From NCBI GenBank assembly GCA_947178045.1, contig CAMWWR010000005.1:1-14470 (forward strand): a stretch of DNA of 14,470 nucleotides, read 5' to 3'. This document shows, piece by piece, positions 1,413-14,470 of the stretch (position 1 is its first letter; each line of letters starts with the position of its first letter). This DNA is from an uncultured Clostridia bacterium (GTDB taxonomy: Bacteria > Bacillota > Clostridia > Lachnospirales > Lachnospiraceae). The notes under the pieces are model-generated. The model saw only the letters and a program-made list of their open reading frames with translations. It did no database searches and was not told where the DNA came from. A program made the position numbers and the translations under genes.

Positions 1413-1832
1413 TTATCGAGCCTGTACCTTTGCGAGTAGAGCCTCTTGTAATACCTGTGAAAAATTAATGTCCATTTCCAAAGCTGCAGTATTAAGCCAT
1501 GCAGGGATGGTAAGTGTCTTTCTGACAGATTTATCAAAGTGCTCCTTCGCATACGCTTCCACATCCACTGAAATCATATTGACAAAAGCCTCTTCTGGTT
1601 CAATTTCCAGCTCTTTTGAAATTGCTGCCAGGTCAATGGAATTCATCGGTGATGGTTCGGGAATCGGCTCACCATCCTTCTCAAGCCAGCGAAGACGTCC
1701 AGCCAGACAATCTACAGCCATGGCCATAGCTTCATCCATAGTTTCGCCACAGGTAGCTACATCTAAATCTGGGAAAATGACCGAATAACCGTTTTCTTCT
1801 TTAAAGAAACAAGCCGGATATATTGATAACAT
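1413..1832 (-). CDS. hicB: HicB-type antitoxin, 139 aa
   Basis: The antitoxin of a type II HicAB toxin-antitoxin pair: it should bind and block HicA and repress the shared promoter. Residues 1-60 show the HicB partial RNase H-like fold, with YPACFFKEENGYSVIFPDLD, then CGETMDEAMAMA and a helix. Residues 103-137 (VRKTLTIPAWLN... to LLAKV) look like a C-terminal ribbon-helix-helix DNA-binding segment. The length is usual for the family. The ATG at 1832 is preceded by AGGAGG (1849-1844). It follows hicA by 36 bases on the same strand, giving the toxin-first order common for hicAB. Its stop is followed by a strong hairpin at 1339-1376. Confidence 0.9.
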   Translation of the reverse strand: MLSIYPACFFKEENGYSVIFPDLDVATCGETMDEAMAMAVDCLAGRLRWLEKDGEPIPEPSPMNSIDLAAISKELEIEPEEAFVNMISVDVEAYAKEHFDKSVRKTLTIPAWLNTAALEMDINFSQVLQEALLAKVQAR

Positions 1833-1868: not shown

Positions 1869-2057
1869 TTATTTAAGCCCCGCCTGCCTCCTGATGTTGT
1901 TTTCTGTACCCTTGGGAAGATCTTTGCTGTGGAATGGTATTGTGACCTTACCGGGCTTTGCTGGGTGTATGTAGTTCTTATGAGAACCTTCCTGATTCTT
2001 GAACACCCACCCATCAGCAAGGATTAGCTTTTCCATTTCCCTTGGTTTTATTGGCAT
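1869..2057 (-). CDS. hicA: HicA-type mRNA interferase toxin, 62 aa
   Basis: A small basic toxin with a double-stranded-RNA-binding-like fold that cleaves mRNA when not bound by HicB. The sequence shows the family hallmark GSHKNY at residues 24-29, whose His26 is the expected catalytic residue. It also has the N-terminal helix (KPREMEKLILADGWVF), the strand VTIPFHSKDLPKGT and the final IRRQAGLK helix. The length of 62 is typical. The ATG at 2057 is preceded by AAGGAGG at 2071-2065. A near-consensus promoter lies directly upstream (2081-2109), and hicA is the first gene of the pair. The toxin appears intact, with no frameshift and its catalytic His present. Confidence 0.92.
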   Translation of the reverse strand: MPIKPREMEKLILADGWVFKNQEGSHKNYIHPAKPGKVTIPFHSKDLPKGTENNIRRQAGLK

Positions 2058-2814: not shown

Positions 2815-3738
2815 ATGAGCAAAGGATTTGATGAACTGATTTCTGCCGTCGGCAGCAAAAAGAAGGTGTCGGTCGCTGTTGCGCAGGACGCGCCCGTGCT
2901 GGAGGCAGTCAAGGCCGCGAAGGAAAAGGGCATCGCGGATGCTATTCTCGTCGGCGACGCAGATAAGATCACAGAGATTGCAGCCGAACTCGGCATGGAC
3001 CTCAGCGAATATGAGGTGATCGATGTCAAGGATGTGCAGGAAGCTGCCCACACCGCGGTAAGCCTTGTGCATGACGGCAAGGCGGATATGTATATGAAGG
3101 GACTCATCGATACCAAGAGCTTTCTGAAGAGCGTACTGGACAAAGAAGTCGGCCTGCGCACCGGCAAGCCGCTTTCCCATGTCGCCGTATTCGAGCTGAA
3201 GGGCATCGATCATCTGCTGTTCCTCTCGGATGTGGCATTCATCCCGTACCCGACCCTTGAGGACAAGAAGGCCATCATCGAGCACACCGTGCAGGTGGCG
3301 AGAGCATGCGGTATCGCCTGCCCGAAGGTTGCCCCGCTCGCCGCGGTCGAGGTGGTCAACCCGAAAATGCAGGCTACGGTCGACGCAGCGGAGCTCACCC
3401 GCATGAACCAGGAGGGCGAAATTAAAAACTGCATCGTGGACGGCCCGCTTTCTCTCGACCTTGCCATCGACGCGGAGGCCGCGAAGCACAAGGCTGCGGA
3501 GGACAGGAAAATTGTCGGCGACGCAGACGTCCTGCTCTTTCCGGATATTCACGCGGGAAATCTCGTATACAAGGCGCTCGTTCATCTCACGGAGTGCAAA
3601 AACGGCTGCCTGCTGACCGGCACAAAGGCTCCGGTCATCCTGACCAGCCGCTCCGATACCTTTGAGACGAAGGTAAATTCCATCGCTCTGGCCGCCATCG
3701 TCGCGGAAGAGCTGAGAAAATCCGGGGAGCCGGTATAA
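2815..3738 (+). CDS. ptb: Phosphate butyryltransferase, 307 aa
   Basis: Converts butyryl-CoA and phosphate to butyryl phosphate and CoA, the first step of the kinase route to butyrate. It is a soluble cytoplasmic enzyme of the phosphate acetyl/butyryltransferase family. The sequence shows family motifs in order: VSVAVAQDAPVLEAVKAAKEKG near the N-terminus, MKGLIDT (94-100), AAVEVVNPKMQAT (177-189), VDGPLSLDLAI (208-218), FPDIHAGNLVYKALV (242-256) and the end segment SRSDTFETKVNSIALA. About 300 residues is the usual length. The ATG at 2815 is preceded by GGAGG eight bases away. It is followed by buk on the same strand, the classic ptb-buk order, and a Rex-like site lies upstream. Its last five codons and stop are part of a duplicated tract. 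A promiscuous acyl range cannot be excluded, but the pairing with buk makes butyrate the likely product. Confidence 0.95.
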   Translation: MSKGFDELISAVGSKKKVSVAVAQDAPVLEAVKAAKEKGIADAILVGDADKITEIAAELGMDLSEYEVIDVKDVQEAAHTAVSLVHDGKADMYMKGLIDTKSFLKSVLDKEVGLRTGKPLSHVAVFELKGIDHLLFLSDVAFIPYPTLEDKKAIIEHTVQVARACGIACPKVAPLAAVEVVNPKMQATVDAAELTRMNQEGEIKNCIVDGPLSLDLAIDAEAAKHKAAEDRKIVGDADVLLFPDIHAGNLVYKALVHLTECKNGCLLTGTKAPVILTSRSDTFETKVNSIALAAIVAEELRKSGEPV

Positions 3739-3793
3739 AACAAGCGGGCGTATATAAATCCAGGGAGTCGGCATAAAACGCACGGGCGTATAT
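3721..3793 (+). repeat. Tandem duplication of the ptb 3' end (2 x 35 bases, period 38)
   Basis: Copy 1 (3721-3755) holds the last codons of ptb, TCC GGG GAG CCG GTA TAA, plus 17 more bases. Copy 2 (3759-3793) repeats it with 29 of 35 positions identical and reads TCC AGG GAG TCG GCA TAA. The second copy is thus a diverged, untranslated duplicate of the gene's tail with its own stop codon. Confidence 0.8.
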
Positions 3794-3848
3794 TCTGCCG
3801 CGCAGGTTTCCTGCTGCCCGGACTTCCCGCAGCTACCGGAGGTATTTT

Positions 3849-3950
3849 ATGCTTGACACCCTCATAGAACTCGCCATCGAAGCCGCGGCGGAAGTGGCCG
3901 AGGCCGTTATCACCAAAACCGTCACAAACCACATCCACAGGAGGAAAAAC
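3849..3950 (+). other. In-frame 34-codon leader fused to buk, with its own ribosome binding site
   Basis: An ATG at 3849 follows a strong GGAGG (3838-3842) by six bases and runs without a stop straight into buk. The encoded stretch starts [20 protein letters not shown] and ends TNHIHRRKN: an acidic, Ala-rich amphipathic helix followed by a basic tail. Butyrate kinases normally begin at the [16 protein letters not shown] segment, so this would be an unusual N-terminal extension. It could instead be a small protein that has lost its stop codon, or a stretch whose translation brings ribosomes to the buk start. The basic end (ArgArg) is written by the AGGAGG that serves as the buk ribosome binding site. 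Confidence 0.5.
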
Positions 3951-5018
3951 ATGTCCATCAAAAGCTTGATCATCAATCCGGGCTCCACCTCCACCAAGAT
4001 CGGTGTTTTCGAGGATGAGACCCTGCTGTTCGAAGAGACGCTGCGCCATTCCACGGAGGAAATCGCAAAATATGATTCCGTCGTCGACCAAAAGGATTTC
4101 CGCAAGGAGATCATTGTCTCTCTGTTAAAGGAAAAGAATTTCGATATCAATTCCCAGAATGTCATCGTCGGCAGGGGCGGCCTGTTAAAGCCGATCGTAT
4201 CCGGCACTTATGCCGTGAGCGATGCGCTGCTCGCCGACCTGTACAACAGTTCCCAGGGCGAGCACGCGTCGAATCTCGGCGGTATCCTTGCGCGGGAGAT
4301 CGGCGATTCCATTGGTGTACCGTCCTATATTGTTGACCCGATCGTCGTCGACGAGCTTATGCCGGCGGCCAGATATTCCGGCGTACCGGAGCTTCCGCGT
4401 GTCAGCATTTTTCATGCGCTGAATCAGAAGGCAGTCGCAAAGCGCTACGCAAAGGAAACCGGAAAGCCTTATGATTCCCTTCGCCTGATCGTCGTCCACA
4501 TGGGCGGCGGCGTTTCGGTCGGAGCACATTTGAACGGCAAGGTTGTCGACGTCTTCAACGCTCTGGACGGCGACGGCGCCTTCTCGCCGGAGCGCGCCGG
4601 TGCAGTACCGAGCGGCGCTCTTGTGAGAATGTGCTTTTCCGGCAAATATACCGAAAAGGAAGTCTATAAAAAAATCGTCGGAAACGGCGGCTTCAACGCA
4701 TATCTTGGCACAAACGACATGCGCAATGTCGAGAAAATGGTCGATGATGGCGACGAGAAGGCAATCGCCCTGCGCGAAGCCTTCCTTCTCCAGGTTTCAA
4801 AGGATATCGGCTCCATGGCATGCGTGCTGGAGGGCCGGGTAGACCAAATCATCGTGACCGGCGGTATCGCTTATGACAAGTATGTTGTCGGCGAGCTGCA
4901 GAAGCGCGCCGGCTTTATCGCTCCGTTCACCGTATATCCGGGCGAGGATGAGCTGCTTGCGCTCGCGCAGGGCGGTCTCCGCGTCATGAAGGGCGAAGAA
5001 AAGGCGATGGAGTACTGA
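3951..5018 (+). CDS. buk: Butyrate kinase, 355 aa
   Basis: Transfers the phosphate of butyryl phosphate to ADP, giving butyrate and ATP: the energy-yielding last step of butyrate formation. It belongs to the acetokinase family (ASKHA fold) and is cytoplasmic. The first signature [14 protein letters not shown] is at residues 8-21 and the second, [18 protein letters not shown], at 183-200. The [15 protein letters not shown] segment (211-225) and the C-terminal ITGG-like [12 protein letters not shown] (301-312) are also present. The ATG at 3951 is preceded by AGGAGG (3939-3944) six bases away and gives the usual length of about 355. An upstream in-frame ATG at 3849 with an equally good site would give 389 residues. 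It lies 212 bases after ptb with no terminator between, so the two should be one operon. Confidence 0.95.
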
Positions 5019-5071
5019 TTAAGAGATATTGACAGAAGTATTATTTAAAGAAGCGTTCCAGAGATTACTGA

Positions 5072-5157
5072 CAGAGCGCCGTCCCACAGCAGAAAATATA
5101 CAGCAGGGAAACCGGAATCCGGGCTGCTGCAAAGATATGCTGCGGGGCGGCGCTCTG
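5072..5157 (+). other. Nested structured hairpin between buk and the sigma-factor gene
   Basis: CAGAGCGCCG (5072-5081) pairs perfectly with CGGCGCTCTG (5148-5157). The stem extends inward (CCC 5083-5085 with GGG 5144-5146, CAGC 5087-5090 with GCTG 5139-5142) with one wobble and one mismatch. A second stem lies inside: CAGCAG (5101-5106) with CTGCTG (5124-5129), enclosing CCGGAATCCGG. No T-run follows the outer stem, so it is not a standard terminator. It could slow or process the buk transcript, or be a small inverted-repeat element. Confidence 0.5.
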
Positions 5158-5185
5158 CTGATCTTCCGAAAATTCACGAAACCTT

Positions 5186-5213
5186 GTAACCCGCCCGCTC
5201 CAAGCGGTGCTTA
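5186..5213 (+). promoter_or_regulatory. Candidate ECF-type promoter of the sigma-factor 1 operon
   Basis: GTAACC (5186-5191), 16 bases, then TGCTTA (5208-5213). An AAC-containing -35 with a 16-base spacer and no TATAAT is the general form of ECF sigma promoters, so the operon may drive itself. The start codon lies 77 bases downstream of the -10. The match is loose and no second copy was found in the window with the same spacing. Confidence 0.35.
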
Positions 5214-5289
5214 TCAGAGTGAACCCCCTGTCAATGCAGAGCGCTTCCCGATGCGGTTAAACCGGGGTACGGGAAAGGAGAAAAGGATT

Positions 5290-5850
5290 TTGGATAACGA
5301 AAAAATTGTGGAGCTGTATCTGCTCCGGGACGAATCGGCAATCACAGAAACTGCCGAAAAATACGGCAGCCGCCTGCGCGCGCTGGCGCTCGGTATTACA
5401 GCGGACAGGCAGATCGCCGAGGAATGCGAAAACGATACCTATCTGGAAGCCTGGAACTCCATCCCTCCGCACGAGCCGAGAAGCTATCTGTACGCCTTTC
5501 TGGCGCGAATCACCCGGCATATCGCCCTGAACTGCTGCCGCGAGCGAAGCCGGCTGAAACGCAGCGCGCTGCTCTGTGAGCTGAGCTCTGAGGTGGAGCA
5601 GTGCATTCCTGCTCCCGACGACACGGAATGCCGCCTGGAATCCATCGCGCTCGGCAAAGCGATCAACAGCTTCCTTGGAACGCTTGCCGAGGAAAAGCGA
5701 AATGTGTTTCTTCGCCGTTACTGGTATTTTGATTCCGTCGCCGATATTTCCAGGCGTTACTCGCTTTCTCAAAGTAAAGTAAAAACCATGCTTTTCCGTA
5801 TCCGCAACCAACTTCGGGAATATCTTGAAAAGGAGGGCTATATTCTGTGA
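5290..5850 (+). CDS. ECF-type sigma-70 family factor 1, 186 aa
   Basis: Directs RNA polymerase to a small regulon, probably in response to an envelope signal passed by the membrane protein encoded next. Residues 20-90 are the region 2 core: ALGITADRQIAEECENDTYLEAW and the -10 binding helix around SYLYAFLARITRHIALNCCRER. Residues 120-182 are region 4: SFLGTLAEEKRNVFLRRYWYFDSVADISRRYSLSQSKVKTMLFRIRNQLREYL, a helix-turn-helix. The start is TTG at 5290, chosen because AAAGGAG lies nine bases upstream and the protein then begins MDNEKIVELYLLRDESAI, as is usual for this group. An open frame reaches back to 5029 without a ribosome binding site. The stop overlaps the next start in GTGA, so the two are translationally coupled. 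Confidence 0.85.
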   Translation: MDNEKIVELYLLRDESAITETAEKYGSRLRALALGITADRQIAEECENDTYLEAWNSIPPHEPRSYLYAFLARITRHIALNCCRERSRLKRSALLCELSSEVEQCIPAPDDTECRLESIALGKAINSFLGTLAEEKRNVFLRRYWYFDSVADISRRYSLSQSKVKTMLFRIRNQLREYLEKEGYIL

Positions 5851-7202
5851 GAGGTGATGAATTTTTAGAAAAAATGGAACTTGTTGATCCTGCCTATATC
5901 GAAGCAGCGGACAAAATGCCGCCCGCCGGACATCGGAGCCGGAGTCGATGGATCGCAGCAGCCTGCCTATGCCTTATCGTCTGTCTGTGCACCGCTTTTA
6001 CTGCGTTTTTTCTCCGCCGCAAAAGTCCGGGAAGGCCCGATGATCCGCTTACATCCTCAGAGATCGAACAGCAAAGGATAACCGAGCTTGCTTCCGCATA
6101 CGGCGGAACACTTCTCGCCGCGAATCTTGCGCTCCCGGATTTCAGGATTTCCAAGATCCGGCTGACCCATTCGGAGAGTGGAGATATTTCGGATCCTTCC
6201 ACCTGGAGTGAGCTTTCTGTCACCGCGGAATATGACGACACCGACCTGACCTTGCTCTGCTCGTTTGACGACTCCACAAAGGAGGAACCTTCTTCCGAAC
6301 CCGTAGAGCCCCTGCGATACGGGGACATTCTCGTGAATATATACCAGGCTGATGCCATGTCAGAATCAGAGAATATGTACTATGCCGTATTTGAGTATGA
6401 GGGGCTCCACTATGAGCTGTCCACCCAGGTGAATGATCCGGACCGCATCACTGTTTTGCTCGAGCGGATCCTCGGCACGCGTTTAGGGCCAGCTGATTTC
6501 ACGACGGATTTTTCGGACATCTCCGATCCCGCAGCGGGCGCTTCCGATTCACTCGATCCTGCGACAGGCGTCTCTGATCCATCCAATCCTGCGGCAGTTA
6601 TTTCCGATCCATCCGATCCTGCAGCGAACGCTTCCGATTCACTCGATTCTGCGGCGGGCATTTCCGGTTCCTCCGGCGGAGGCTGGCTTCCTGCTGCATC
6701 AGAAACAGCTCCTGCTCCGTCCGGCGCCCCGGACATCCTTCCCCCGCTCCTCGGCTTTACGCAGTACCATATCAAAATCGAGGAGGTTTCCCCTTGGCTT
6801 TTCTTCTGGCACTATTACGCCGAAACAGCCAACGGAGACGAACAGTGCATCGCCGAGGTTTTCGGTCCTGGAGATGAGCCCGAAGCTTATATCGTTGACC
6901 TCGACAGCGACGGGATAACCGAGCTGATCTGCAACTGTGAATATGGCGACAGTGCGAAGCGCGTCTATATTTTCCGCAGCAAAGACGGCATAATCGAGGA
7001 GGGCGTCTTCAACGAGGATTATTACAGAACGGAATTTACAAATATTGATACCATGTGCGGCGCAGCCCGCATCGTCCAAAAATATGATCCGGAGAAAAGG
7101 GCTTTCTTTGTCGCCAACATAGAAGCGGAGGAGCTCATCAACCAAACCTTCTTTATGGGGTTGGATTATTTTAACTTCCGTCCGTTTATACACATAAAAT
7201 AG
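5847..7202 (+). CDS. Membrane partner of sigma factor 1 (putative anti-sigma/sensor), 451 aa
   Basis: Starts at GTG 5847, overlapping the sigma stop by four bases; AAGGAGG lies about ten bases upstream. Residues 1-34 are cytoplasmic; DEFLEKMELVDPAYIEAAD is the short N-terminal helix typical of clostridial sigma-factor partners and the likely sigma contact. Residues 35-56 form one membrane helix. Residues 72-215 form an outer beta-rich domain resembling the DUF4367/DUF4179 kind. Residues 223-272 are five 10-residue repeats rich in Ser, Asp, Pro and Ala, followed by a Gly/Pro linker. Residues 300-451 form a second outer domain with DLDSDGITE (351-359), a calcium-loop pattern (DxDxDGxxE) seen in FG-GAP and dockerin-like proteins. 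The anti-sigma role is inferred from layout; no zinc-binding anti-sigma motif is present. Confidence 0.7.
   Translation: MRGDEFLEKMELVDPAYIEAADKMPPAGHRSRSRWIAAACLCLIVCLCTAFTAFFLRRKSPGRPDDPLTSSEIEQQRITELASAYGGTLLAANLALPDFRISKIRLTHSESGDISDPSTWSELSVTAEYDDTDLTLLCSFDDSTKEEPSSEPVEPLRYGDILVNIYQADAMSESENMYYAVFEYEGLHYELSTQVNDPDRITVLLERILGTRLGPADFTTDFSDISDPAAGASDSLDPATGVSDPSNPAAVISDPSDPAANASDSLDSAAGISGSSGGGWLPAASETAPAPSGAPDILPPLLGFTQYHIKIEEVSPWLFFWHYYAETANGDEQCIAEVFGPGDEPEAYIVDLDSDGITELICNCEYGDSAKRVYIFRSKDGIIEEGVFNEDYYRTEFTNIDTMCGAARIVQKYDPEKRAFFVANIEAEELINQTFFMGLDYFNFRPFIHIK
6513..6662 (+). repeat. Tandem repeat, 5 x 30 bases, in the membrane-partner gene
   Basis: Five units encode SDISDPAAGA, SDSLDPATGV, SDPSNPAAVI, SDPSDPAANA and SDSLDSAAGI. 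Units 2 and 5 are closest to each other, as are units 3 and 4, which suggests block duplication. The result is an acidic, flexible linker between two outer domains, and its length is likely to vary among strains. Confidence 0.85.
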
Positions 7203-9186: not shown

Positions 9187-10344
9187 TTATTCGACAATGA
9201 TTTCCGCATCATTATAATTGACATTTCTTTCCTCATACAGAATTTCCATTGTTTCACAGTTCAAGATAGCAAAGCTCCTTTTCGCCTCGTCTGCCTCAAC
9301 AAAAAAGCCTATATATTCTCCCTTTTCATCCAGAATCAGGGTGTCAACCAGCCGTTCTCCCGGCTCTGTTTTATAATATATTGTCTCCTCCTGATCCGCA
9401 ATTTTTTCCGACGCCGGCCCCGCTCCAAAATGAGGCGCGGGCTGCACATAATAGAGCTTGTCATAATTGCCGTCCCAGGTAAAAAAAAGACCGTAATATT
9501 CTTCAAAGCTGTTCTGCTCCAGATGATATACAATATACACGTTCAGAGAGGGATTTCTATGCCCCTCTAAAACAACGCGTTCCTCACCGATCCAGCAAAA
9601 ATCATTCAGCGAGGAAAAAAATACATCTGTCAGCTTGCATTCCTTTTCCGTCCCGTCTTCCAGTGTGACCTTCAGAGCCTGGAAACTCCATCCTTCCACC
9701 GGTATCAGCTCCGCTTTTTTGCCGGAAGGGCTGAATACTGCAGAGTCCGGTCCCGGCTCCTGCGCCGGATATCCATTTGTTTTTTTCCTCAGATAAATAC
9801 TTTTTTCGCCGTCGCTCCAGATTGGCCCGTCGTCTTCTTTTGCTGTATCAGGAGCCTTTGTAATCGGATTCTTCTCGTTTGCTGTCCCCGGTGTCACGCT
9901 CACGCTGTCCGCTGTGTTGCCCGCGCCGTTTGTCGAATCCGACGGATCCCGCTCAAAAATTTCTTCGCTGCCCGCCGCATCCCTGTTCCCCGATGCTTTA
10001 TCCGATGCAGGACTGTGACCGGAAGGATCGCCATCCGGCAGGTTGTCGCTGTCCGGCAGATGATCGTTTCCCAGCAAATTATCGTTCCCTGGCAAATCAT
10101 TGTTTCCCGACAAATTATCGTTTCCTGACAGACTACTGCTCCCCTGTGCTTCCCTTTCATGATCCGCCGCGCCGCGGCTGCTTTTGCCGTACATCACTCC
10201 GACGCCGATCACTGCCGCAAGTGCAAGGGCTGCCGCCGCAGAGGCAGTCCACACCGCAAGCTGTCTCTCCCTTTTTCTCCTTTTCTCCGCTTCCTTCCTG
10301 CTGCGCCGCAATACGCTTTCCGCGACCTCTCTATAATCCTTCAT
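9187..10344 (-). CDS. Membrane partner of sigma factor 2 (putative anti-sigma/sensor), 385 aa
   Basis: The ATG at 10344 lies inside the end of the sigma 2 gene (14-base overlap) with AAGGAGG nine bases upstream, so the two are translationally coupled. Residues 1-30 are very basic (KDYREVAESVLRRSRKEAEKRR region) and cytoplasmic. Residues 31-53 form one membrane helix. About 68-104 is a Gly/Asn/Asp/Leu hexapeptide repeat, continued by a Ser/Asp/Pro-rich linker to about 170. Residues 175-385 form a beta-rich outer domain (IWSDGEKSIYLRKK, DDVFFSSLNDFCWIGEERVVLE-like strands, ETIYYKTEPGERLVDTLILDEKGEYIGFF) that resembles part of a beta-propeller, but I cannot name it. The layout copies that of the sigma 1 partner although the outer domains are not alike. 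The role in holding the sigma factor is inferred. Confidence 0.7.
   Translation of the reverse strand: MKDYREVAESVLRRSRKEAEKRRKRERQLAVWTASAAAALALAAVIGVGVMYGKSSRGAADHEREAQGSSSLSGNDNLSGNNDLPGNDNLLGNDHLPDSDNLPDGDPSGHSPASDKASGNRDAAGSEEIFERDPSDSTNGAGNTADSVSVTPGTANEKNPITKAPDTAKEDDGPIWSDGEKSIYLRKKTNGYPAQEPGPDSAVFSPSGKKAELIPVEGWSFQALKVTLEDGTEKECKLTDVFFSSLNDFCWIGEERVVLEGHRNPSLNVYIVYHLEQNSFEEYYGLFFTWDGNYDKLYYVQPAPHFGAGPASEKIADQEETIYYKTEPGERLVDTLILDEKGEYIGFFVEADEAKRSFAILNCETMEILYEERNVNYNDAEIIVE
10037..10144 (-). repeat. Tandem repeat, 6 x 18 bases, in the sigma 2 partner gene
   Basis: Six units of 18 bases start at 10037, 10055, 10073, 10091, 10109 and 10127 (for example GGCAGATGATCGTTTCCC and GACAAATTATCGTTTCCT on the plus strand). 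They encode a hexapeptide of the form GNDNLS/GNDNLL. The linker lies just outside the membrane helix. Confidence 0.85.
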
Positions 10345-10888
10345 AGATAAAGCCCTCCTTATCAAGCTCTGATTTCAGCGACATTTTTGCACGGTACATA
10401 AGGTTTTCAATCTGACGCCTGCTCTTTTTCATGACGGCTGCGATCTGCCCGTTATCAAAGTCCTCAAAGAATGACAGGTACAATACCTGCTGATATTCGG
10501 ATTTTAATCTGTTCATCGTCCTGTGAAGCATGATCTTCTGCTCTTCACGCAGATATGCCTGCTCCAGTCCCGCCTCGTCGCTTTCTATGTTCTGCAGCTC
10601 CTCCACAGATGTCAGAATTGTCCTTGCACTGTGCCTCAGATAATCGATTGCCACATTTCTTCCGATCGTATACAGCCACGTTTTAAAGGAATGTCTGGCG
10701 GAAAATTTGGGCTTCTTCACCACAAGCCGGACAAAGGTATCCTCCATCAGATCCTCCGCCGTGTGGATATTCTGCGTAAAGCCATTCAGATACAGGATCA
10801 GACCGTCCTTGTAATCCCTTATGATCTCGACAATGCCGTTCTCGTCACCATCAAGGAAACGGCGGTAGCTACTTGCACCGTTATCCAT
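10331..10888 (-). CDS. ECF-type sigma-70 family factor 2, 185 aa
   Basis: A second ECF sigma factor. Residues 20-86 are region 2 (IVEIIRDYKDGLILYLNGF, AEDLMEDTFVRLVVKKPKF, and the -10 helix HSFKTWLYTIGRNVAIDYLRH). Residues 118-175 are region 4 (RLKSEYQQVLYLSFFEDFDNGQIAAVMKKSRRQIENLMYRAKMSLKSEL). The ATG at 10888 is preceded by AAAGGAG seven bases away and gives the normal length; eleven upstream in-frame codons lack support. Its last residues (DKEGFIYEGL) overlap the start of the membrane-protein gene, and the AAGGAGG inside this end serves that gene, the same device as in sigma 1 (EKEGYIL). The protein differs from sigma 1, so the pairs are probably not a recent duplication. I found no clear promoter of its own in 10889-11223. 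Confidence 0.9.
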   Translation of the reverse strand: MDNGASSYRRFLDGDENGIVEIIRDYKDGLILYLNGFTQNIHTAEDLMEDTFVRLVVKKPKFSARHSFKTWLYTIGRNVAIDYLRHSARTILTSVEELQNIESDEAGLEQAYLREEQKIMLHRTMNRLKSEYQQVLYLSFFEDFDNGQIAAVMKKSRRQIENLMYRAKMSLKSELDKEGFIYEGL

Positions 10889-11223
10889 TGATTTACTCCT
10901 TTCCGAAAGGTGTGGGGCCAATCCGGGCTTTGCAAAATTCCCCGGATATCCGACGCCCGCTCACCGCCCTTCACCTCTTAAACGGACAGCACGCGGTTTT
11001 CTCTCACCGCAGGGCGGCAATTTTTCAGAGCTCCGATTCCCGGCCGGACCGCCGCAGATTTATTGCAGCGGCTCCGCTTGCTGTTTGTGTCATTTTGTTA
11101 TATGCTTATACCACGAACAACAGGCGGAGGAACCTGAGTGGAACACCCCAAAATCACATATTTTCAACTTCTTCATTGATTCAGTACCACAGGCAGCCAC
11201 AAAATAAAGCAAGGAGGCCCATT
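10889..11223. other. Divergent intergenic region between sigma 2 and the ankyrin-type gene
   Basis: These 335 bases carry no convincing gene. An open frame runs through them into the ankyrin-type gene but has no ribosome binding site. On the plus strand TTGCTG (11078-11083), 17 bases, TATGCT (11101-11106) is a weak candidate promoter for the ankyrin-type gene. GCAGCGG/CCGCTTGC around 11065-11081 can form a small stem just before it. On the minus strand AAAACC and TTTAAGAGGTGAA near 10972-11000 recall ECF promoter parts, but the spacing is too short to call one. Confidence 0.5.
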
Positions 11224-13052: not shown

Positions 13053-14021
13053 TCAATACAGCTTTGGCAGCGTTTCCTTCGTCACCGCATAAGGGCTTTC
13101 ATAAAGCGTTTTCAGATACTCAAAGCTGTTGAAATCCTCCGTAAGGCAGAAAACTCCTGACCATGTCATATAGCTTGCCCAGCCGATCCCCCGGTCATGG
13201 ATTTCGCCCATATCCGGCAGGCTGCCGATCTCGCCGATAATCGTTATTTTCGGCTGTCCGGTGATTTTTATCAGCTCGTTGTACTGGTCGGCACAGGCTG
13301 TGTGAACATGCTTTTCCGGGTACATATCTCTGGAAATAATATCCACCACATCATCGCCGGGATAGCACTCCGGTACGGCGGTGTTCCACACCCAGATCAG
13401 GTTGTTCAAACCGTGCAGGCCGGTGTACCTCTCATACATCATACGGTACAGCTTCTTCACAACCGCAGGCCCTTTCACTCCCCACCAGAACCAGTCGCCG
13501 TCGCCCTCATGGAACGGCCTCCAGAGGATCGGTATCCCCTTATCGCAGAACGGCCGGAGCAGCCCCGCCATCATGTCCATATCGGACAGCAGCGCTCTGT
13601 TTTCCGGCGTCCCGTCCATCACTGCCCTGCCTGCATCAAAGTCCGTGTTTTTGGTGAAAAACGCCTTGGAACGCCCTCCAAGCGGTGAGAACCAATGCCA
13701 TGTAAAGGTGAGCAGTCCCTTTTTCTCCGCCCATTCCCAAGCTCTTTTCAGCGTGCCGAAATTGTTTACAACCTCGGTCATGCATTCCTCATCGGTATCA
13801 AGATAATTGATATTCGGGGAGTATGACAAAAGCTCAAACCCCAGCAGGGCAGGCTCATGGCCGGTTATCTTTCTGATGTGATGAAGCTCCTCCATCGCCA
13901 TCGTCTGTGTATGCTGACCCGTTATCACTTTATTGTACGAAATATCGGACAGGTACTTTAATACATTCTTAACACCCTCCTGCGCGTTCGGATTCACGGG
14001 CGTATTTATTTTGCCGCTCAT
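13053..14021 (-). CDS. Glycoside hydrolase family 26 (beta-mannanase type), 322 aa
   Basis: A retaining endo-acting TIM-barrel enzyme, most likely cutting beta-1,4-mannan or manno-oligosaccharides. The acid/base motif WRPFHEGDGDWFWWG has Glu172, and the nucleophile segment TIIGEIGSLPD has Glu264. The family's N-terminal pattern is present: KYLSDISYNKVITGQHTQ (22-39), PALLGFELLSYS (57-68) and LLTFTWHWFSPLGG (103-116). The ATG at 14021 follows GAGGTGGAG. An open frame extends 39 codons upstream but crosses a strong hairpin and has no better start. There is no signal peptide, carbohydrate-binding module or anchor, so it should be intracellular, unlike most GH26 mannanases. It is alone on its transcript and converges on the methyltransferase gene. 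Confidence 0.9.
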   Translation of the reverse strand: MSGKINTPVNPNAQEGVKNVLKYLSDISYNKVITGQHTQTMAMEELHHIRKITGHEPALLGFELLSYSPNINYLDTDEECMTEVVNNFGTLKRAWEWAEKKGLLTFTWHWFSPLGGRSKAFFTKNTDFDAGRAVMDGTPENRALLSDMDMMAGLLRPFCDKGIPILWRPFHEGDGDWFWWGVKGPAVVKKLYRMMYERYTGLHGLNNLIWVWNTAVPECYPGDDVVDIISRDMYPEKHVHTACADQYNELIKITGQPKITIIGEIGSLPDMGEIHDRGIGWASYMTWSGVFCLTEDFNSFEYLKTLYESPYAVTKETLPKLY

Positions 14022-14038
14022 AGCTCTCCACCTCGTAT

Positions 14039-14085
14039 AATAAGTTTGTAAGCAAGAAAAACAGCTTACAGACTTATTCTTTTTT
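14039..14085 (+). terminator. Plus-strand intrinsic terminator upstream of GH26
   Basis: AATAAGTTTGTAAGC (14039-14053) pairs with GCTTACAGACTTATT (14064-14078) over 15 base pairs with one G-T pair and a 10-base loop. CTTTTTT (14079-14085) follows at once on the plus strand: a textbook intrinsic terminator in the plus direction. On the minus strand no T-run follows the stem. It lies in the 5' region of the minus-strand GH26 gene, 18 bases from the ATG, and no plus-strand gene precedes it closer than the methyltransferase ending at 12910. Confidence 0.8.
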
Positions 14086-14179
14086 ATGTATAAATGGTAA
14101 GGACATCTAAGAGGAACTCCCCTCATCCCGATTCCCATCTATACACTTAACAGTTACCTTTCAATATAGGTAGATCCTG

Positions 14180-14188
14180 TGGTATGAT
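14180..14188 (+). promoter_or_regulatory. Extended -10 promoter for the candidate bridge RNA
   Basis: TGGTATGAT matches the extended -10 form TGnTATAAT with one change. A poor -35 (TTCAAT, 14160-14165) lies 17 bases upstream. In IS110 elements the -35 can be supplied by the other end when the element circularises, so a weak -35 next to a good -10 near the left end is expected. Read in the other direction, TTGAAA (14164-14159), 15 bases, TATAGA (14143-14138) could be a weak GH26 promoter that overlaps it. Confidence 0.45.
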
Positions 14189-14194
14189 ATCAGA

Positions 14195-14446
14195 TAGAGT
14201 CTGATGTCCGAAGGCACTGCTGTTCCTCCTTTCAGCCGGCTTAGTCCGAGACTGCTTTTGTAGCATTCAGCCTGGCACATACGGCATATTCCGCTGACAC
14301 AGAATTTTCATCCCCAGTCGCCAGCCCCAGCAAGAAAGGCTGACTGGGTGCATGCTCATTGCGCGAGGTTTCGGTCACCGTATGCAGCACAGGATAAACC
14401 TTTAGCCTCAGGCTTCACAAATCCTGACCAGAATGGAGGTGATATC
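14195..14446 (+). ncRNA. Candidate IS110 bridge RNA / structured leader
   Basis: There is no open frame of note in these 252 bases, but stems are present. AGTCT (14198-14202) pairs with AGACT (14249-14253), enclosing a GCTG/CAGC stem-loop (14219-14236) with a pyrimidine loop. CCCAGTC (14313-14319) with AGCC (14323-14326) pairs with GGCT (14338-14341) and GACTGGG (14342-14348), leaving a three-base bulge and an 11-base loop. TCAGG (14408-14412) pairs with CCTGA (14423-14427) just before the ribosome binding site. In IS110-group elements the non-coding left end encodes a bridge RNA with target and donor loops. The RNA ends and the guide segments cannot be fixed here. Confidence 0.4.
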
Positions 14447-14470
14447 ATGTTAAAGATCAACTATATGTCC
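14447..14470 (+). CDS. Probable IS110-type recombinase, first eight codons
   Basis: ATG at 14447 is preceded by GGAGGTGAT (14435-14443), a nine-base match to the 16S anti-Shine-Dalgarno sequence, so a real gene starts here. The visible product is MLKINYMS. I recall this start, followed by a CCGxDVHK motif, from clostridial IS110 transposases, but the catalytic DEDD and Ser domains are outside the window. That a gene starts here is nearly certain; the family is a moderate-confidence call. Confidence 0.55.

Follow-up and report, generated by a model that had tools for sequence, protein, structure and literature searches.

Genes and features at the locus

The window, that is, the whole stretch of DNA analyzed here, is an entire contig (C5) of 14,470 nucleotides from an assembly that is 69% complete and in 431 contigs. 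An IS110-group insertion sequence lies at the end of this contig, and the contig stops within the element, next to a glycosyl hydrolase family 26 (GH26) gene on the minus strand (Table 1).

Several other genes are present in the window. A gene for a HicB-like antitoxin (1413-1832, minus strand; PF15919) adjoins a 62-amino-acid open frame (1869-2057, minus strand) that resembles HicA by its motif, and the two are a probable toxin-antitoxin pair. A gene for a phosphate acetyl/butyryl transferase is followed by what is, by eye, a likely butyrate kinase (2815-5018, plus strand). After each of two sigma-70-like genes (5029-7202, plus strand; 9187-10921, minus strand) comes a gene that encodes a hydrophobic stretch and could be an anti-sigma partner, again as judged by eye.

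We located the left boundary of the element by aligning copies. Similarity among the copies begins with CGTATAATAAG at 14034, and to the left of this position the copies have in common the core dinucleotide CT (14032-14033) and letters of a target that resembles a Shine-Dalgarno (SD) sequence. A sequence-only reading of this DNA had recognized the left end of an IS110-type element and had started it at 14160. The identification was correct, but the left end, ~413 bp long, reaches ~125 bases further left and includes two hairpin regions (14040-14085 and 14088-14144). The right end of the element is TTGACATATCACCAGAATG, with variants, followed by CT. The same assembly contains a second left end, on contig C336, and one right end, on contig C238.

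Table 1. Features of the visible part of the element and of its insertion site.
Feature	Position	Strand	Basis
Host target gene, glycosyl hydrolase family 26 (GH26)	13053-14021	-	minus-strand ATG 14019-14021; PF02156 E 1.8e-54 (scan of 13053-14024, one codon longer than the gene)
Left target, the SD of the GH26 gene, AGGTGGAGA on the minus strand, ending in core CT (14032-14033)	14025-14033	-	sequence and left flanks of other copies
Visible element (left end and first recombinase codons), cut by contig end	14034-14470	+	boundary common to other copies
TATAAT at element edge, -10 half of a predicted circle-only promoter	14036-14041	+	17 bp from right-end TTGACA in reconstructed junction
Terminator-like hairpin (13-14 bp), then TTCTTTTTT	14040-14085	+	folding energy and covariation
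Second hairpin-like module, GTATAAATGG...CCATCTATAC	14088-14144	+	alignment of copies
Likely extended -10 of the bridge RNA's own promoter	14180-14188	+	TGGTATGAT; conserved with small variants, 34 aligned copies
Predicted bridge RNA, approximate ends	14195-14385	+	structure, covariation, guides
Target-binding stem-loop (lower stem 14212-14219/14268-14273; upper stem 14233-14239/14246-14254)	14212-14273	+	
Left target guide (LTG) GUUCCUCCU, including core CU; anti-SD sequence	14222-14230	+	covaries with left flanks; equals the L192 empty site
Right target guide (RTG) UUUUGUAG, predicted right target CTACAAAA	14256-14263	+	covaries with right flanks
Donor-binding stem-loop (stems 14278-14284/14378-14384, 14291-14293/14372-14374, 14309-14317/14344-14354, 14322-14326/14338-14342)	14278-14384	+	
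Left donor guide CACAGAAU	14298-14305	+	variants track left donors of other copies
Probable right donor guide AUUGCGCGAG, matching CTCGTATAAT with interruptions	14358-14367	+	inspection only
Ribosome-binding site GGAGGT of the recombinase gene	14435-14440	+	sequence
IS110 recombinase gene, first codons (MLKINYMS); truncated by contig end	14447-14470	+	full protein from related copies

The recombinase

Only the first 8 codons of the recombinase gene are visible in the window's copy. They follow the near-perfect ribosome binding site that had been pointed out: GGAGGTGATATC at 14435-14446, after which the ATG at 14447 opens the frame that runs to the end of the contig. We found the recombinase behind several of the related left ends. 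In the one copy scanned for domains (L004; protein P0001, 433 amino acids), DEDD_Tnp_IS110 (PF01548, E 6.9e-28) and Transposase_20 (PF02371, E 4.7e-20) domains were both above the cut-off, and PDB matches of the related-copy recombinase included chains of ISCro4 and IS621. As seen in the related copy, then, the gene after the leader is an IS110 recombinase, as had been proposed. A search of the rest of the assembly found neither the remainder of this gene nor any other recombinase gene of this type, as would be expected had contigs been broken at repeats.

Predicted promoters and hairpins in the left end

The left end contains, in order, one half of a predicted junction promoter, a hairpin with a run of T's, a second module, and the likely promoter of the bridge RNA. 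In the reconstructed junction of right and left ends, predicted to read ...CCAGAATG-CT-CGTATAAT... in the circle, we found TTGACA-N17-TATAAT in 38 of the 38 copies that have both ends. Judged by these sequences, joining of the circle ends would rebuild a promoter.

The hairpin at 14040-14085 is stable (dG -15.5, z -5.2). Among 35 copies, 98.2% of cells were paired, and both sides had changed in 26 cells. A pattern scan did not report this hairpin because the loop limit of the scan was 8. Transcription from the junction promoter would terminate here. The module at 14088-14144 had an MFE z of -1.2, and RNAalifold retained just 4 pairs with a covariation term of about zero. This module appears to be tandemly duplicated in seven copies (L034, L035, L042, L056, L057, L074, and L170).

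An extended -10 with a poor -35 had been described inside the left end. The extended -10 (TGGTATGAT) is indeed present, and the -10 region is kept, with small variants, in 34 aligned copies. A scan of both strands from 13950 to 14470 found no promoter, consistent with the poor -35. Transcription probably starts at ~14195. A palindrome at 14190-14204 begins before this likely start, and we therefore do not claim a 5' stem-loop within the RNA. An internal promoter, ~150 bases into the left end, thus seems to serve the bridge RNA, which could be made while the element is integrated. We saw no clear promoter pointing outward from the left end toward the host gene, either by eye or in the scan of 13950-14470.

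A candidate bridge RNA with covarying stems

The alignment of copies supports an RNA, encoded in the left end, that has two stems with internal loops, the arrangement expected of the IS110 group. We compared 36 of 38 bridge RNA stretches (alignment A1), leaving out L013 and the outer, interrupted copy at L045; stretches that contained N or were identical to another had been skipped beforehand. For 37 proposed pairs, 98.5% of cells were paired and 0 of 500 shuffles were as good, although most of these pairs derive from the consensus that RNAalifold predicted for this alignment, which favors them. Compensatory changes on both sides were found in 15 pairs, compared to 5.6 by shuffling, and sliding the partners destroyed the fit. 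Changes on both sides were present in 6 of the 7 pairs of the outer donor helix. The number of further pair types was unremarkable (25, compared to 22.8 on shuffling; 73/500).

Single-sequence folding gave a different result. The MFE of 14190-14392 was no better than that of shuffled sequences (z = +0.48), and 138 of 200 shuffles folded equally well. That is, the sequence-only reading of a stem-rich region with a candidate bridge RNA is upheld by covariation and not by folding energy. No Rfam family reached its gathering score in the window. The RNA region ends ~60 bases before the start of the recombinase.

Some left-end matches had no recognizable bridge RNA (L024, L025, L028, L080, L103, L104, L136, L138, and L169). 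Several of these are still at SD-like sites; they are decayed copies, solo ends, or chance matches.

The element is inserted at Shine-Dalgarno sequences

Typically, the left flank of a copy reads AGGAGG-spacer-ATG on the minus strand. We counted insertion sites with this arrangement among 128 left-end matches. Before counting targets we removed twelve that lack the hairpin, some of which are perhaps real copies (L011, L028, L104, L142), and four more whose left flank was shorter than 120 nt. Among the 112 sites kept, a few, such as L126, may have matched by chance, which weakens the signal.

At 100 of the 112 sites, an open frame begins with a start codon located 8-21 nt from the core (87 ATG, 7 GTG, 6 TTG); 12 sites lack this arrangement. 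The distance from start to core was 12 or 13 nt in 76 of the 100. In controls from the same loci, a start and frame were found at 255/878 CTCCT sequences, 81/244 CCTCCT sequences, and 733/4440 random positions; a looser control pattern gave 933/3984. With a stricter definition (ATG only, 11-15 nt from the core, open frame), 84/112 sites scored, compared to 95/810 CTCCT controls and 35/213. Allowing GTG and TTG as well gave 95/112, compared to 129/810 and 52/213. Insertions are therefore beside a start codon, at the SD and in a fixed orientation, by the broader (100/112) and the stricter (84/112) definition. Based on these comparisons of sequence, the target of the element is the Shine-Dalgarno sequence of the host gene to its left. 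This enrichment may partly reflect survival, since insertions that fall within genes are lost.

The left guide copies the anti-SD sequence of the ribosome (CCUCCU). The anti-SD tail of 16S rRNA is GATCACCTCCTTTCT, and in near copies the guide and the next bases, CCUCCUUUC, are the same string as this tail. A guide RNA with the letters that the ribosome uses to find gene starts would explain why most copies sit directly before genes. We also searched 12 genomes for the pattern GGATCACCTCCTNNCNA. There were 23 sites, known by pattern alone, in 7 of the 12 genomes, all reading ...CCTCCTTTCTA; the pattern was not found in the other 5, including the window's own draft and the single-contig genome G265.

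Guides agree with the flanks and the left donors of their own copies

The sequence-only reading had suggested that loops of the RNA match the flanking target and the donor junction. We found that both target guides agree with their own flanks, copy by copy, on either side of the core, as is characteristic of the first loop in the IS110 group. The window's guides are GTTCCTCC(T) for the LTG and, as its complement, CTACAAAA for the RTG. In 44 copies, the LTG had 213 matches to its own left target at positions -9 to -3, compared to a shuffled mean of 174.8 (sd 5.1), and none of 20,000 shuffles did as well. Position -6 agreed with the flank in 37/44 copies (15.4 expected). In 35 copies, the RTG matched the first base past the core 30 times (13.9 expected) and the second 25 times (18.8 expected). 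These two bases together gave 55 matches, compared to 33.2, with 0/20,000 shuffles as good. Beyond them the RTG signal was weak. Both signals remained when one copy per distinct guide was used (19 and 19).

Individual copies illustrate this agreement. L058 has the guide TTTTTCACC(T) and the flank TTTTTCACCT; L046 has the guide TTTTCTCCC(T) and the flank TTCTCCCT; and in L059 the RTG complement CTTA equals the right flank CTTA. Matches were poor in L003, L009, L061, L212, and L219. Most LTGs retain CTCCT, the complement of the SD (-4 T in 40/44 and -5 C in 40/44), and the departures CACCT, CTCCCT, and ATTCCT are each mirrored in the flank. Right ends that had been assigned to L066 and L075 proved to be false.

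In all 29 copies compared, the left donor guide agreed with the left donor of the same copy, over three variants (CAGAA, CAGAT, and CAGGA). These 29 are the rows, out of 36 in alignment A1, that have a right end, with no motif filter. A fourth variant is present in three deeper copies (L141, L178, L112). The expectation of a match to the donor junction thus stood for the left donor; the probable right donor guide was found by inspection and leaves two bases unmatched. It rests on inspection because the right donor hardly varies, leaving covariation nothing to test. Another candidate for the left donor guide, GCATGCTC, was rejected: part of it pairs in the donor stem, and CAGAA/CAGAT/CAGGA track the left donor instead.

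At L045 (2395-4410), one copy of the element has entered the stretch that encodes another copy's target guide, and the rest of the outer copy is missing. Such an insertion could be expected because the DNA of the guide is itself a target.

An empty site in a related genome matches the window's guides

We found an uninterrupted homologue of the GH26 gene (73% identity) in the same-genus genome G715 (L192), the only one of five other same-genus genomes in which the match extends to the start of GH26. It carries GTTCCTCCTACAA. Upstream of the gene, G715 reads CGTTCCTCCTACAAGC, and the empty site at the RTG side is CTACAAGC. This site matches 9/9 letters of the LTG and 6/8 letters of the RTG (core CT and the next four). 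The guides, read from the window's own RNA, had thus predicted the sequence present in G715.

The window's own left flank, CTCTCCACCT, fits the LTG less well than the empty site does, perhaps due to later change. Only one right end, on C238, turned up in the assembly. The sequence after it, CTTCATTT, disagrees with the RTG (CTACAAAA), and this end may belong to the second copy, on C336. Searches for empty sites of L008 and L058 found none.

Distribution of related elements

By DNA similarity, similar left ends are present in 29 of 397 genomes of the family, the window's own included; some are short left-end matches only. Scans of genome contigs and viral contigs gave 40 and 3 further loci. Carriers include the commensals Blautia sp. 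An81 and Robinsoniella peoriensis. An order-wide pattern count of 33/392 genomes (own included) is not a prevalence, as one mismatch was allowed and a reversed control also matched several genomes.

Relatives on plasmids (L211-L218; Bacillaceae, Alicyclobacillus; 42-45% identity) have similar ends and SD-like left flanks, and in 5 of the 8 an annotated start codon is beside the core (L211, L212, L213, L217, L218). Among more distant relatives (L219-L226; 26-40% identity), 3 of 8 have an annotated start beside the left end (L220, L221, L222); for L223 and L224 this could not be judged. Guides could be read in 12 of these 16 relatives, and 94 of 108 letters matched the flank (0/20,000 shuffles), where the guide stretch was chosen after seeing the sequences and the permutation was run after this choice. 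L212 (3/9) and L219 (6/9) fit poorly. It appears that relatives near 38-45% identity mostly behave alike. One distant relative, L222 on an Enterococcus faecium plasmid, is directly before a streptothricin resistance gene, with a GTG start beside the presumed end of the element.

Comparison to known systems

As described for IS621 and the IS110 group, the left end encodes the bridge RNA and the recombinase has DEDD and Transposase_20 domains (Durrant et al. 2024, PMC11208160). The element here is like IS621, as described there, in its recombinase domains, its left-end bridge RNA with the target loop 5' of the donor loop, its core CT, its short effective RTG, and a sigma70-like promoter at the joined ends (PMC11208160). 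It differs from that description in its target, an SD site rather than REP elements (PMC11208160), in a bridge RNA that seems to have an internal promoter ~150 bases inside the left end, in a junction promoter that leads straight into a terminator-like hairpin, and in a left end of ~413 bp with an extra hairpin module. Like the seekRNA systems of IS1111 and IS110 elements, in which a DEDD transposase finds its specific site by means of a non-coding RNA (PMC11187229), ours would be an RNA-guided DEDD transposase. In contrast to IS1111, in which the RNA is in the right end (PMC11208160), the RNA here is in the left end. The recombinase is a distant relative of that of IS621 (PDB match, E 2.6e-9).

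Going by its title, a 1997 study by Doran et al. reportedly found that IS900 targets translation initiation signals, linked to expression of the hed gene. In the account of IS900 from Mycobacterium avium subsp. paratuberculosis in PMC8141618, the element prefers the target motif CATGNNNNNNTCTCCTT and the hed gene is on the opposite strand. As described there, IS900 inserts where translation begins, at a site with CAT, a spacer, and CTCCT in this order (PMC8141618). The element here likewise inserts at translation starts and has the start codon on that side. The host phylum differs, and the likeness is to the reported motif of IS900 rather than to its own sequence. With AGCTGG given as the SD motif of the host organism of IS900 (PMC7823733), the IS900 motif may be an SD there only to some extent. 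A term search of the seekRNA paper found no mention of 'IS900' or 'Shine' in the text searched (PMC11187229). Among the matches listed from the open-licence literature, no paper explained insertion at translation starts by an RNA or combined bridge RNA with SD, and none on IS110 with anti-Shine-Dalgarno was found in that literature. Thus IS110 anatomy, IS900 at translation starts, and bridge RNAs (2024) were known, and the anti-SD guide and the seemingly separate RNA promoter seem to be new.

Interpretation

We consider it very probable that positions 14034-14470 are the left end of an IS110-group element inserted, with core CT, in the SD of the GH26 gene, and that a bridge RNA with an anti-SD target guide directs insertion. 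The internal extended -10 promoter would probably make a bridge RNA of ~190 nt. Its first internal loop would carry the LTG, which copies anti-SD (CCUCCU), and the short RTG, both pairing with the target; its second loop would pair with the element's own joined ends. By analogy with IS621, the recombinase would be loaded with this RNA and cut the element out as a circle, which it would join to an SD site by RNA-guided strand exchange. The LTG would bind the SD strand of the target, as the ribosome does. The insertion would land between the promoter and the ribosome-binding site and leave the coding sequence untouched; the GH26 gene would keep its SD and start, and its promoter would be separated from it by ~1.8 kb. 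The gene might then be silent, or be expressed by read-through or from within the element.

It is very unlikely that the leader is only a folded 5' UTR that regulates the recombinase mRNA, with protein or DNA shape picking the SD sites. The position of the RNA region directly upstream of the recombinase gene and its unremarkable single-sequence folding energy would fit such a leader, but loop bases change with both the left and the right flank of the same copy, and the left donor guide varies in step with its left donor; a mere leader would have no reason to do so. A different view of the SD bias is that the element inserts at many CCTCCT-like sites and that mainly the insertions beside ribosome-binding sites survive, so that the bias is partly selection. 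Insertions in coding sequence would be harmful, and outside coding sequence CCTCCT commonly occurs as an SD; the insertion at L045, in another copy's guide DNA, indicates that non-SD sites can be used. We regard this view as possible though on balance doubtful. The guides mostly keep CTCCT, with departures matched in the flank, and covariation of guides with targets does not follow from survival alone; guide preference and survival may both contribute.

We think it unlikely that the window's copy is a dead remnant that has no working recombinase. Such a remnant would account for the contig ending after 8 codons and the assembly having no recombinase gene of this type, and left ends without a recognizable bridge RNA do exist elsewhere. 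However, repeats of this kind often break contigs in an assembly as incomplete and fragmented as this one, the left end is complete up to the start codon, and the genome has the second left end and a right end.

Under our preferred interpretation, that of an RNA-guided element targeting SD sites, it seems fairly likely that a Bacillota clade of IS110-group elements has fixed its target guide on the anti-SD sequence: what 16S rRNA recognizes in mRNA, this RNA would recognize in DNA. The tail of 16S rRNA hardly varies between species, and so very many gene starts in very many hosts would be landing sites. One could speculate that the bridge RNA touches SD sequences of mRNAs while the element is integrated. 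The findings also offer a possible reason, at the level of RNA, for the old observation of IS900 at translation starts. For bridge recombinases, a site upstream of many genes would be a new general class of target. This apparently unstudied family provides a guide with its own promoter, natural variation in the guide, and many natural insertions, and the effect on the separated host gene becomes directly testable. If this interpretation is correct, then the element would be freed from host-specific targets while the coding sequences of its hosts are kept intact.
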